DNA of 64,000 nucleotides from contig NZ_JASJOC010000006.1 of the NCBI RefSeq assembly GCF_030068615.1, positions 124,001 to 188,000 of the forward strand, in the 5' to 3' direction. The translations under genes and the position numbers were made by a program. The DNA comes from Halostagnicola sp. A-GB9-2 (GTDB lineage: Archaea > Halobacteriota > Halobacteria > Halobacteriales > Natrialbaceae). Under the pieces are notes generated by a model. It had not been told where the DNA came from. It did not search any database and saw only the letters and a list, made by a program, of their open reading frames with translations. Positions 44,502-52,801 of the stretch are shown in pieces; position 1 is the stretch's first letter, and each line of letters opens with the position of its first letter.

Positions 44502-45515
44502 TTAGTGCGTCGACAGCGCCGATATCGACTGGCTCGATCCAAAAATCGCAAAGAGATAGATGATGATCGCGGCGACGACGATCGAGCCGCCCGGGGGAAG
44601 TCCCTGATGGATAGCGATACCATAGCCGCCAAGCACCGAGAGTTGTCCGAACAGGATCGAGAGGATAAGCGTCTCCCTGAAGCTGTGAGAAATCTGGGAG
44701 GCGGCCGCGACAGGGATGACCAACATCGCGGCGACGAGGATCACGCCGAGAATCTGCATGGCTCCGACGACGACGACGGCGGTCATCACGATCAACAGCG
44801 TGTTGTACCAGGTGACGTTGAGCCGCGCAACACGTGCGGCCTGCTCGTCGAAGGTGATAAACAGCAACTGTTTGTACGTCACCGCGACAATGGCGACGAC
44901 CACGAGACTTAACACCGCCATCAGCTGTGACCCGCCGGTCGTCACGTACGCGGCGCTTCCGAAGAGATACTCTTCGATGTTCACGCCGGAGAGACCACGG
45001 CCGTAACTGATGATGAGCGTTCCGACGGCGAAACTCCCCGTCAGCATGATCGCGATGGGAACGTCTCCGTAGGTGTTCGTTCGCTCCGTCAACCACTGAA
45101 CGCCAAGAGCCCCGAGGACGCCAACCACGAGCGCGGCCGTCAACAGCGAGCCGTCCCAATCAGTCGTCGTGGTGAACAGCAATCCGACGGCGACGCCGGC
45201 AAAAGCCGTATGCGCGAGTGTTTCACCGATGAGCGCCATCTCCCGGTGGACTAGATACGTTCCAACCAGCGGTGCGACGATGCCGATCAAGACGGCCGTC
45301 GCGACCGATCGCCACATGAACCCGTAGCTGAAGACGTTCGTTCCCAGGTAGACATCCATCCACTGTCCGAAGATGATAAACTGGTCGTAGAGCCCTTCAG
45401 CATAGCCGTAGCCGCGAAGCCACTCGAGACCGACAAACGCGATCATGATGACCGCCAACAGGGCGGTCAATCCGATGCCGACGAGTTCGAGCGGGCGTCT
45501 TAGAGATCCGTTCAT
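44502..45515 (-). CDS. znuB: Zinc/manganese ABC transporter, permease
   Basis: 337 aa with about nine hydrophobic segments; ABC-3 family: VLIGIVAPLVGTYLVHREMALIGETLAHTAFAGVAVG split as GTYLVHREMALIGETLAHT (the ABC-3 signature), FGSAAYVTTG, ARVARLNVTWYNTLLIVM and LVAAMLVIPVAAASQISHS. Membrane pore of the Znu system. It shares one base with znuC (45515) and is last in the operon. ATG 45515. Confidence 0.9.
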   Translation of the reverse strand: MNGSLRRPLELVGIGLTALLAVIMIAFVGLEWLRGYGYAEGLYDQFIIFGQWMDVYLGTNVFSYGFMWRSVATAVLIGIVAPLVGTYLVHREMALIGETLAHTAFAGVAVGLLFTTTTDWDGSLLTAALVVGVLGALGVQWLTERTNTYGDVPIAIMLTGSFAVGTLIISYGRGLSGVNIEEYLFGSAAYVTTGGSQLMAVLSLVVVAIVAVTYKQLLFITFDEQAARVARLNVTWYNTLLIVMTAVVVVGAMQILGVILVAAMLVIPVAAASQISHSFRETLILSILFGQLSVLGGYGIAIHQGLPPGGSIVVAAIIIYLFAIFGSSQSISALSTH

Positions 45516-46255
45516 CAGTGGTGGTGGTGGACGACCTGTCCGGATGTTCCGTACGCCTCGGTCAGGGCGTCGCTTTCGACGAACGATTCGGTATCGCCGT
45601 GGTGGTACAGTTCCTGATTGATACAGGCAATGTGGTCTGCGCGGTCAGTAACGACGCCGATATCGTGTTCGATCAGTACGACCGTGATTCCCGACTCGTT
45701 CAGCGAATCGAGCAGTCGATAGAACTCGTCACGAGATTCGGCGTCGACGCCCACCGTCGGCTCGTCCAACGCGAGCAGGTCCGCTTCGGAGGCGAGCGCT
45801 CGAGCGATAAACGCCCGCTGGCGCTGGCCGCCCGAGAGCTGGTTGACTCGCCGGTCGGCGAGTTCCGTTATTCCGACCGTCTCGATAGCATCGTCGACGA
45901 TTTCGTAATCGAAATCGCTCAACCTCGAGTGGCCCGCGTGCGGAAACCGGCCCATCGTTACGGCTTCGCGGACGGTCACCGGCATCGTTCCGCCGCGGCT
46001 GGTCGCTTGCTGGGAAACGTAGCCGATGCGTTCGCCGTGTTCGAACTCCGAAACCGGCTCGCCGAACAGTTTGATGGAACCCTCGTCGGGGGAGTGAAGC
46101 CCGAGCATGAGGTGCAAGAGCGTCGTCTTCCCCGACCCGTTCGGGCCGATCAATCCGAGAAAGTCACCCTTCTCGATCGTCAGCGACACGTCTCTGACCG
46201 CGACTTTGTCTCCGTACGCGAACGTGACGTTCTCGATAGCAACTGCCGGGTTCAC
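45515..46255 (-). CDS. znuC: Zinc/manganese ABC transporter, ATP-binding protein
   Basis: 246 aa. Walker A GPNGSGKTTLLHL, signature LSGGQRQRAFIARAL, Walker B LLALDEPTVGVDAESRDE and switch His in VVLIEHDIGV. Metal-uptake (MntB/ZnuC) subfamily. The C-terminus ends GQVVHHHH; four terminal histidines could sense or hold zinc. Operon znuA-znuC-znuB; 58 nt after znuA. ATG 46255. Confidence 0.92.
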   Translation of the reverse strand: MNPAVAIENVTFAYGDKVAVRDVSLTIEKGDFLGLIGPNGSGKTTLLHLMLGLHSPDEGSIKLFGEPVSEFEHGERIGYVSQQATSRGGTMPVTVREAVTMGRFPHAGHSRLSDFDYEIVDDAIETVGITELADRRVNQLSGGQRQRAFIARALASEADLLALDEPTVGVDAESRDEFYRLLDSLNESGITVVLIEHDIGVVTDRADHIACINQELYHHGDTESFVESDALTEAYGTSGQVVHHHH

Positions 46256-46312: not shown

Positions 46313-47695
46313 TCACTCGGCACCGAGTGCCCGTTTCAACGACGGGATGTTGATCTCTTCCATCTGTTCGACCCACCCGTATCCCGCATCGTCCCACGCT
46401 TCGGTGTTCCCCTCGAGTGGCGTCAGGGGTTCGTACTCCGTTGCATCCGTTTCGTCGAGGAGGACCTCGACCATGTCGGGAACGTCTTCGTCGGGATTTT
46501 GCGTCTCGAAGGGGTCATAGAGGATCGTCTCGATATCGTGTTTCTCGACGACTTCGATCATCTCGGAGATATCTTCGGTACTCTCGACTTCATCCGGCGA
46601 GACGCCGGCCGGCGTGTGGAGTTCGAAATCATACCGGCGCTCGATGTACTGATAGGAATCGTGGCCAGCGAAAACCGCAACGTCACGGTCCGCGTTTTCA
46701 GTTAGCTCGTGTAGTTGGTCGTCAATTGCCTCGAGTTTTTCGAGATAGTCCGCTGCGTTTTCCTCGTAAAACTCGGCGTTGTCCGGATCGGCCTCCGCGA
46801 GACCTTCTGCGATCGTTTCGACGATGTCCTGGGCGATTACGGGATCGATCCAGACGTGAGGATCCGCGTTCTCGGGAGCGTCGGTCTCCTCGAGTTCCTC
46901 CACGACCGAGACGATTGAGGTATCGGCACTCGTTTCCCAGACGACTTCGCTGTCGGCGACGAGTTCGAAGACGATCCGCGTCTGGGACACCTCAGTACCG
47001 GAGAGGACGACGTGATCTCCTCGAGATTCGATTTCGAGTGCGTCGCTTTCCTCGTCCACGTAGCTGACTTCGAGCTGAAACTGTTCGTCGGATCCGAGCG
47101 GGAGCACGTTCCCGTCTGCGTCTTCGAAGACGCCAGCGACCGCAATTTCGCCGTCGACGGGAACGTCCGGAACGCCGCCGTGCCAGTGGCCGTCGTGCCA
47201 GTAGGCGACTTCCGCTCCGGTTCGCTGATCGTAGAGGTCGAACCCGGTAATTTCGATTTGGTCGGGGTCGAAATCGCGGTCCGCCGGCTCGCGGTCGAAG
47301 TCGCCGTCGGTGTCCATCTCGAGAAGTTGGTTCTCGAGCCCAGCCATCCCGTCGATCAACGTGACGTGGTCGTAATCGCGTTCGAACTCCGCCGCAAACT
47401 CCTGTGCCCACGCGAACTCGTCCGTATCGAGATAGATAAAAACGTTCGAGTCCGCGATGTCTCGCTGCAGATCGCTGGGTGGCTCCCACCCGTGTCCCAT
47501 CTGACCGGTGTCGATGGCGTTTTCGAACGCTATTTCCTCCCCGGCAATCTGCTCGGCCCAGTCCCAAAGTGGAAAGAACGCAGCGTAGCCGCCTTCGGAT
47601 CCACCGCTATCGGGCTCGCTAAGACACCCCGCGATCGTGCCGAACGCGACGGCCCCCACCCCTGTTCGGAAGACGGATCGGCGTGTACGGTTCAT
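46313..47695 (-). CDS. znuA: Zinc-binding substrate protein (ZnuA family) with inserted HxxHWH domain
   Basis: 460 aa, much longer than usual (about 300). Tat/lipobox N-terminus NRTRRSVFRTGVGAVAFGTIAGC. Cluster A-I core: GQMGHGWEPPSDLQRDI, then after an insertion DPHVWIDPVIAQDIV, AVFAGHDSYQYI and YDPFETQ, which carry the expected metal ligands. Residues ~145-255 are an extra domain with YWHDGHWHGG (His167, 170, 172), where other ZnuA proteins have a His-rich loop. That domain matches the adjacent lipoprotein (47908-48573). ATG 47695. Operon with znuC and znuB. Confidence 0.88.
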   Translation of the reverse strand: MNRTRRSVFRTGVGAVAFGTIAGCLSEPDSGGSEGGYAAFFPLWDWAEQIAGEEIAFENAIDTGQMGHGWEPPSDLQRDIADSNVFIYLDTDEFAWAQEFAAEFERDYDHVTLIDGMAGLENQLLEMDTDGDFDREPADRDFDPDQIEITGFDLYDQRTGAEVAYWHDGHWHGGVPDVPVDGEIAVAGVFEDADGNVLPLGSDEQFQLEVSYVDEESDALEIESRGDHVVLSGTEVSQTRIVFELVADSEVVWETSADTSIVSVVEELEETDAPENADPHVWIDPVIAQDIVETIAEGLAEADPDNAEFYEENAADYLEKLEAIDDQLHELTENADRDVAVFAGHDSYQYIERRYDFELHTPAGVSPDEVESTEDISEMIEVVEKHDIETILYDPFETQNPDEDVPDMVEVLLDETDATEYEPLTPLEGNTEAWDDAGYGWVEQMEEINIPSLKRALGAE

Positions 47696-47723
47696 ACGAG
47701 TACGTACGAGTGAATGGGTAAAA

Positions 47724-47757
47724 GAGTTATTATGGGATCGGATATCGTTAATAACTC
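47724..47757. promoter_or_regulatory. Inverted repeat upstream of znuA (candidate metal-regulator operator)
   Basis: GAGTTATTA (47724-47732) and TAATAACTC (47749-47757) are perfect 9-bp inverted arms 16 nt apart, 29 nt before the znuA ATG. The left half also provides a TATA-like element. A zinc-responsive repressor (DtxR or Fur type) could bind here; not shown. Confidence 0.5.
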
Positions 47758-47907
47758 GTGACACTCGAGAGAGTCGTCTTAGTAATCGTTCCGAACGAAA
47801 GCGGTCATCGGCGTGCGAATTCGGTGCATCACAAACGCACTGGCTCTCACGGACGATAGTCGAGAATCGCATTCTGTCGGTGATAGCGTCGAAATCAGAG
47901 AATCCGA

Positions 47908-48573
47908 TCAGTGGTCGTCGTCGTGGTCGTCATCGTCGTGGTCGTCATCGTCGTGATCGTGGTCGTCATCGTGGTCGTCATCGTGGTCGTCATCGTCGTG
48001 ATCGTGGTCGTGGTCGTGGTCGTGGTCGTTGTCGTATTCACCTATGACGACTTCGAGATCAGGCGTTTCGTACACGACGTGGTCGTCGGATCGAATCTGG
48101 AAGACGACCGTCGTGAACCCGTCGCCGACGCCGTGGAGGTGGACGTGATCCCCGTGGAAATCCTCGTCCGGATCGCTTTCGACGATTCCCTCCTCAGCGC
48201 TGTCTGGCACCTCGACGGCGAGTTCGTACTCGTCACCGAGTTCGATCTCGTCGCCGTCCTCGTCCTCGGCGTGTACGCCGAGGGAGAGATTGTCGTCGTC
48301 TGGAACCTCGAGCGGATCGTCGTGCCAGTGTTCGCCGTGGATGTATACGGTTACGGAATCGTCGTCTCGATCGATGACCTCGAATTCTTCGATCTCGAGG
48401 TCCTCGGGTTCCTCACCGTTTCCGTTCTCGTCGCCTCCGTCGCCACCGTCGTCATCACCGTTCTCTTCCCCATCGTCGTCCCCGCCGAGACAACCGGCGA
48501 GAGCGAGCGTTGTCAGCGAACCCGATGCAGCGAGCACCCGTCGTCGGGACGCCGATCGTGGATTAACAGTCAC
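47908..48573 (-). CDS. Lipoprotein with HxxHWH domain and His/Asp-rich metal-binding tail
   Basis: 221 aa from a GTG at 48573 (no ATG before the signal). SRRRVLAASGSLTTLALAGC gives a Tat-like lipoprotein signal; an acidic linker; then a domain at about residues 65-175 with VTVYIHGEHWHDD (His79, 82, 84), VHAEDEDGDEIELGDEYEL, GDHVHLHGVGDGFTTVVF and DHVVYETPDLEV; and a 40-residue tail of DHDHDHDHDDDDHDDD type. Clearly metal-binding. Same domain as the insert in ZnuA. Upstream of znuA on the same strand, 212 nt away. Role: likely periplasmic-side zinc capture and hand-off (inference). Confidence 0.82.
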   Translation of the reverse strand: MTVNPRSASRRRVLAASGSLTTLALAGCLGGDDDGEENGDDDGGDGGDENGNGEEPEDLEIEEFEVIDRDDDSVTVYIHGEHWHDDPLEVPDDDNLSLGVHAEDEDGDEIELGDEYELAVEVPDSAEEGIVESDPDEDFHGDHVHLHGVGDGFTTVVFQIRSDDHVVYETPDLEVVIGEYDNDHDHDHDHDHDDDDHDDDHDDDHDHDDDDHDDDDHDDDH

Positions 48574-51926: not shown

Positions 51927-52604
51927 TCAGGCGTTGTTATCGTTTGATTCGTTATCGTCGCCTTCGTCGTCCATATCGTCGTCATCCGCTCCGTTCATGT
52001 CGTCGTCCTCTTCGTCCATACCGTTTCCTTCCTCACCGAGGGTGAGCGTAACTTCTTCGTCGTCGCCGTCGATTTCGACGTCTTCTTCCGCCTCATCCCC
52101 TTCGTGCTCGGCGGTAACGGTGTATTCGCCGTCCTCGAGGCCCTCGAATTCCACCTCGCCGTCCTCGTCGGTTTCGTCTTCCATCTCTTCGTCGTCCATC
52201 TCATCGTCGTCCTCGTCCGCTGGGTCGTCTTCGTCTTCTTCGTCCTCACCGTTCTCGTCGTCCATCTCTTCGTCGTCCTCCTCGTCTTCGCCGTCCATCT
52301 CTTCATCGTCTTCCTCGTCCGCTGGATCGGCTTCGTCACCCTCGTCGACGGTGACGGTCGCTCCTTCCACGGGCTCTTCGTCACCGTCTTCGACGGTTAC
52401 GGTGAGCGTATACTCGCCGTCTTCGTCGTCATCTGCTGGGTCGTCGTCATCGTCGTCACCGACCGGATCACCGTTGTCGTCTTCGGGGTCGTCCGCGGGA
52501 TCATCGTTATCCTGATCGTCGTCGGCACAACCGGCTAAAACCAGTGCACTTGCTGAACCAGCGGCAACTACGAACTTCCGTCGATTGAGTCGTGGGCGAG
52601 ACAT
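51927..52604 (-). CDS. Tat lipoprotein with carboxypeptidase-regulatory-like strands split by an acidic repeat
   Basis: 225 aa. RPRLNRRKFVVAAGSASALVLAGC is a twin-Arg lipoprotein signal. Then an Asp/Pro-rich linker, YTLTVTVEDGDEEPVEGATVTVDEG (first strands of a CarboxypepD_reg-like sandwich), about 60 acidic residues of EEDDEEMD repeats, then GEVEFEGLEDGEYTVTAEHEGDEAEEDVEIDG (remaining strands) and an acidic tail. Probably a surface, ion-loving protein. ATG 52604. Function unknown. Confidence 0.72.
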   Translation of the reverse strand: MSRPRLNRRKFVVAAGSASALVLAGCADDDQDNDDPADDPEDDNGDPVGDDDDDDPADDDEDGEYTLTVTVEDGDEEPVEGATVTVDEGDEADPADEEDDEEMDGEDEEDDEEMDDENGEDEEDEDDPADEDDDEMDDEEMEDETDEDGEVEFEGLEDGEYTVTAEHEGDEAEEDVEIDGDDEEVTLTLGEEGNGMDEEDDDMNGADDDDMDDEGDDNESNDNNA

Positions 52605-52801
52605 ACAATCAGATAGTACGTTCCAGACTGTTGGAATGCGGCCTGCAACTGCCGTACGTTGATCACCTAGGGCACTTCCAATAACGAAATCAGACAGTCG
52701 GCGTAACTGAGAGGACGGGTGTCGCAACTGATGGAATTGATACGCGGCTCGATCCCGTTGCATTCATAACCTAGTTGTAACTACAATACAATGATCGAGG
52801 C

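Follow-up and report, generated by a model that had tools for sequence, protein, structure and literature searches.

The ZnuA protein encoded in a 64,000-nucleotide stretch of Halostagnicola sp. A-GB9-2 (the window) carries, where its relatives have a histidine-rich loop, a folded domain that also forms the core of the lipoprotein encoded next to it. Residues ~142-263 of ZnuA, the insert, and residues 54-179 of the lipoprotein, its core, are homologous copies of one domain. This domain is probably a histidine-triad module for metal capture, recruiting zinc and passing it to ZnuA. All genes of the locus lie on the minus strand, in the transcription order 221-aa lipoprotein, ZnuA, ZnuC, ZnuB, with the following features:

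47908..48573, minus strand: domain lipoprotein, 221 aa, GTG start, one domain copy (twin-arginine signal and LAGC lipobox)
48037..48414, minus strand: free-standing domain copy, lipoprotein residues 54-179 (AlphaFold pLDDT 93.5, pTM 0.86)
48322..48339, minus strand: first His triad HGEHWH, His79/82/84 of the lipoprotein (conservation in 60 lipoprotein copies)
48139..48156, minus strand: second His triad HGDHVH, His140/143/145 of the lipoprotein (conservation in lipoprotein copies)
47911..48030, minus strand: C-terminal lipoprotein tail of about 40 residues, rich in His and Asp (read from the translation)
46313..47695, minus strand: ZnuA (460 aa), a substrate-binding lipoprotein of zinc-type cluster A-I that contains the inserted domain (PF01297, E 5.6e-43)
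46907..47272, minus strand: inserted domain with predicted Ig-like fold and HxxHWH motif, ZnuA residues 142-263 (homology to the lipoprotein, domain-HMM boundaries, model strands at 149-265)
47180..47197, minus strand: HDGHWH, His167/His170/His172 of the insert (conservation in 38 ZnuAs)
45515..46255, minus strand: ZnuC, ABC ATPase (PF00005, 2.8e-33)
44502..45515, minus strand: ZnuB, ABC-3 permease (PF00950, 8.3e-60)

Profile, fold and ligands all identify the window ZnuA as a cluster A-I zinc substrate-binding protein. PF01297 spans residues 37-431, insert included (147.8 bits against a cut-off of 29), the model resembles the ZnuA domain of AdcA (7jj8, E 2.2e-16), and the zinc ligand-type residues His68, His280 and His345 are all kept; a lipobox is also present. 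An original prediction, made from the sequence, had judged the protein about 150 residues too long; the excess is real, and comes to about 120 residues, as insert-free relatives mostly measure 317-385 aa. The source genome (4.68 Mb) encodes a second insert-bearing ZnuA, 60% identical in the domain, which stands by itself on contig C38 close to a siderophore-type importer. Contig C1 encodes an ordinary ZnuA of 317 aa that has its own ZnuCB and lacks the domain. Elsewhere in the window, positions 51927-52763 encode a low-complexity, very acidic lipoprotein with weak CarboxypepD_reg and Ig-like matches.

Sequence comparison at several levels bears out the prediction of a shared domain, inserted in one protein and free-standing in the other. 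BLASTP aligned the insert with the lipoprotein domain at 8e-11 (34% identity across 108 aa), the match reached a Z of 17.5 against 1000 shuffles of the insert, and HMM-HMM comparison with hhalign of 18 insert and 18 lipoprotein family members was significant (probability 100, E 1.9e-39), so that the outcome named in advance as refuting a shared domain did not occur. The alignment pairs ZnuA H167/170/172 with lipoprotein H79/82/84, the motif positions originally given. Searched against the source genome, insert and lipoprotein retrieved each other (2.9e-10 and 1.8e-11) and the second insert-bearing ZnuA, and every remaining match had E > 0.08. The domain lies outside described families, as had been suspected: no Pfam or NCBIfam profile, known Ig-like and Big families included, matched it above cut-off in the window ZnuA or lipoprotein, and 50 domain members gave weak, scattered matches only against Pfam. 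A sequence search of the PDB returned no significant relative, a plasmid collection did not contain the domain, and a literature search on zinc supply in soda lakes or a domain inserted in ZnuA found nothing useful.

The AlphaFold model of the lipoprotein domain, built with 50 relatives, is all beta. Residues 149-265 of the ZnuA model (pLDDT 86.3), the insert, form a separate all-beta block with the same strand order, so the predicted models agree with the like fold proposed for both segments. Structural matches are Ig domains from S-layer proteins and from adhesins (SbsC, LigA, Sap), with a Foldseek E of 4.7e-4 and VIA Z of 8.1-8.3; the best VIA Z, 8.4, lies at the edge of the range for a common arrangement. 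Pht structures are not among the fold matches listed, which counts neither for nor against a relationship. An Ig-like beta-sandwich arrangement is thus predicted, which does not itself prove kinship with Ig domains; SbsC, LigA and Sap resemble the domain in predicted fold but have no significant sequence match, and their structures are not known as HxxHxH metal binders. Judged from strand order alone, three sites could share one end of the sandwich, each falling in a loop or at a strand start: the first triad (domain residues 26-31), the second triad (87-92) and a further His position (112).

Conservation within the domain centres on the triads. Across 38 ZnuAs, only H167, H170 and W171 of the insert are invariant, with H172 present in 35/38; apart from this HxxHW, insert positions vary more than those of the ZnuA core. 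In 60 lipoprotein copies the first-triad histidines are kept in 88/92/68%. The second triad, HGDHVH, is usual in lipoprotein copies (85/85/63%, versus 29/40/0% in clade I ZnuA inserts) and is often joined by a further His pair; both are mostly lost from subfamily I inserts. Many lipoprotein copies also have His/Asp-rich linkers or tails. These counts would fit a many-site scavenger, the lipoprotein, beside a single-site receiver, the insert.

The insert is located just before the second zinc ligand, His280. Four of four insert-free sisters (L084, L145, L127 and L137) to the two insert-bearing subfamilies have a long His-rich loop at the insert position, which is where the domain had been predicted to sit. 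On the ZnuA-core tree, insert carriers fall in two subfamilies with 98-100% bootstrap each, and a single clade of carriers was rejected (AU p 7e-5), so at least two changes are needed. On the domain tree, a single clade holding every insert is not rejected (p 0.74). Two insertions, or one insertion followed by two losses back to a His loop, are possible histories. Inserts of subfamily I, the window type, come from many genera and form one clade on the domain tree (95 and 99 SH-aLRT), so the split between insert and lipoprotein is old. The window pair is therefore no recent duplicate, and the suggestion that one neighbour was copied from the other is not supported; the idea of a mobile module survives on an evolutionary scale, given the several architectures in which the domain occurs.

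In 16/16 named archaeal ZnuA loci (L042-L057) the lipoprotein (1-3 copies) comes first, followed by an insert-bearing ZnuA, then ZnuC and ZnuB. At L084 the ZnuA downstream of a domain lipoprotein lacks the insert and has a His-rich loop of 70 residues, and some clade I loci (L002, L087, L089, L099, L100 and L102) are without a lipoprotein neighbour. Clade II insert ZnuAs have DAKFF or similar versus DPHVW, so that the second zinc His is gone, and they lie away from domain lipoproteins; their metal may be other than zinc. Members of this clade are L076, L077, L083, L088, L090, L093, L094, L158:3805-5202 and L160:3812-5230, and several, where examined, adjoin ZnuB without an adjacent ZnuC. The domain is also found in ~900-aa surface proteins. 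A doubled HxxHWH copy with a C-terminal membrane anchor lies directly upstream of CbiM-NikL-CbiM-CbiQ-CbiO at L153:5597-6610 and L155:5844-6872 (methanogen-like), that of L153 standing after cobalamin genes and before this cobalt/nickel ECF transporter. At L156:5444-6619 and L157:5033-6208, a ~220-aa N-terminal region is fused to the domain and adjoins formate dehydrogenase genes. A second module, approximately HACxH...RTxLxxG...HVIWNVT...GPFVFYxAxGxAxPV, recurs near insert ZnuAs (L002:94-783, beside the source genome's orphan ZnuA; L067-L071; L091:6195-7142) and accompanies the HxxHWH domain in surface proteins of ~900 aa.

Upstream of znuA in the window lies a candidate promoter element:

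47724..47757, minus strand: candidate operator GAGTTATTA-N16-TAATAACTC, an inverted repeat ending 28 nt before the znuA ATG (recurrence upstream of insert znuA genes)

A similar element (>=14/18 positions) precedes 30/42 insert znuA genes, with a spacer of 16 in 26/30, compared with about 2% in shuffles. Its right half, TAATAACTC, may overlap the TATA region, and the repeat is a candidate site for a metal regulator. The lipoprotein gene is preceded by a looser related arrangement (48633-48603), and a promoter element common to the two genes suggests co-regulation. The same inverted repeat is also seen upstream of some insert-free znuA genes.

Among sampled haloarchaeal genomes, 71/391 encode the domain; counted by genus, it occurs in 5/5 genomes of the source genus, 4/7 of Natrialba and 5/52 of Halorubrum. 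A methanogen-like genus accounts for 3/199 genomes of its class, and there a copy is also seen next to a formate dehydrogenase. A pattern search of 84,980 species genomes found twenty named loci. Carriers are Natronococcus, Natrarchaeobius, Natrialba, Halobiforma, Halorubrum alkaliphilum, Natronobiforma, Natronolimnohabitans and Natronosalvus, along with MAGs labelled CSSed, B1Sed, T1Sed and Tc-Br11, labels that belong to soda-lake studies (PMC6146748, PMC4766312, PMC6704655). MAG Ods02 seems, from its name, to come from the Odiel saltmarshes (PMC12942990). Nearly all named matches are soda-lake or haloalkaliphilic organisms, a suggestive link given that the pattern search is biased to close relatives. 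Soda-lake bacterial MAGs (Mollicutes, Myxococcales) carry three copies in L058 and L060 and two to three in L061, with bacterial-type lipoprotein signals and bacterial gene surroundings, and these copies likely reflect transfer between domains of life.

From the homology, fold prediction, conserved triad, operon order and loop replacement we infer metal binding, its transfer and direction of flow, and scavenging at high pH and carbonate, as follows. The predicted Ig-like sandwich with its HxxHxH triad (here HxxHWH) would bind a transition metal, which in this operon would be zinc. Equipped with two His triads and a His/Asp tail and encoded alongside the transporter, the lipoprotein would scavenge zinc at the cell surface and hand it to ZnuA, perhaps via the insert, which in place of the flexible loop before His280 would recruit zinc at the mouth of the binding cleft. 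ZnuCB would then take zinc into the cell. Known systems offer precedents for such a relay. Streptococcal PhtD (PF04270) binds Zn through His83/86/88 of HxxHxH and Glu63, and as a scavenger transfers it to AdcAII of the same operon (PMC3842936); it resembles the window system, by analogy, in its HxxHxH triads, often HGDHxH, and as a surface protein in an operon with a zinc-binding protein. In contrast to the predicted Ig sandwich, Pht units are three-stranded sheets and are not known as inserts in the binding protein. Membership of the Pht family was rejected: PF04270 did not match the window domain and matched 2/50 members (best E 0.0089), and the Pht PROSITE motif (PMC3842936) occurred in 0/182 domain-bearing ORFs. 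AdcA, like the window ZnuA, is a zinc-binding protein with an added domain, and its accessory domain and His loop jointly aid zinc recruitment under restriction (PMC7858048); however, the ZinT-like domain of AdcA is a C-terminal fusion and the His loop is retained, whereas the window domain is internal, at the His-loop position and of predicted Ig type. An AdcA-type two-domain lipoprotein was likewise rejected, as the extra domain is internal and unrelated in sequence, and NF033605 scored 83.5 bits against a cut-off of 700. AztD, encoded beside the cluster A-I zinc protein AztC, transfers zinc to it (PMC7463823), but is unrelated to the window lipoprotein, and AztC has no related inner domain. 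The window system would thus work like PhtD, AdcA and AztD by analogy, and is a member of none.

That zinc is captured and handed to ZnuA is argued for by the homology, invariant H167/H170/W171, operon order, the His loops of sister proteins, retention of His68/280/345, the promoter element, the precedents and the soda-lake carriers. It is weakened by the loss of the second His in clade II, the clade I loci without a lipoprotein, the insert-free ZnuA of L084 and the Co/Ni neighbours. Domain copies beside a cobalt/nickel transporter weaken zinc specificity in particular, and together with the clade II ligand loss they make transition-metal capture the best description of the module. It is possible, if rather unlikely, that the module serves transition metals in general and that context decides which one (Co, Ni, Mn or Fe for some members), perhaps in the window pair too: the doubled copies of L153 follow cobalamin genes and precede CbiM-NikL-CbiM-CbiQ-CbiO, and clade II ZnuAs have lost a zinc ligand, but the window ZnuA retains the three ligand His that mark a zinc site, and zinc is most likely the metal in the window operon.

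Two other readings give the module a different role. The best fold matches being S-layer and adhesin Ig domains (SbsC, LigA, Sap), and the domain occurring in tandem (1-3 copies) and in ~900-aa surface proteins, it could be a docking or spacer module by which the insert and the lipoprotein contact one another or the S-layer, its histidines making protein contacts rather than binding metal. We regard this as improbable, because HxxHW is precisely the invariant part of the insert, the lipoprotein copies carry a second triad as well and in many cases His/Asp-rich linkers or tails, and the genomic neighbours are metal importers. Very doubtful is a buffering role, in which lipoprotein and insert would hold back surplus zinc, or other metals, at the surface and restrict the loading of ZnuA; the lipoprotein's long His/Asp tail speaks for it, and the original prediction noted that ZnuA His loops can be regulatory, but the proteins are encoded with an importer rather than an exporter, AT-rich repeat elements of like arrangement precede both genes, and the AdcA and PhtD precedents are of recruitment. 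Returning to capture, we tentatively extend it, with somewhat less than even confidence, to a general soda-lake transition-metal module that would have spread among haloarchaea, a methanogen-like lineage and bacteria in response to metals locked at high pH and carbonate, replacing the ZnuA His loop and with an HxxHxH independent of streptococcal Pht.

How the binding proteins of ABC importers are loaded with metal, and the role of their His-rich loop, are still debated. With the loop swapped for a folded domain and a matching free domain encoded next door, two small proteins suffice to test directly both what the loop does and whether zinc is handed over. The domain also provides a name-worthy family for many haloalkaliphile surface proteins that lack annotation, and a candidate explanation of how these organisms acquire trace metals in carbonate brines.
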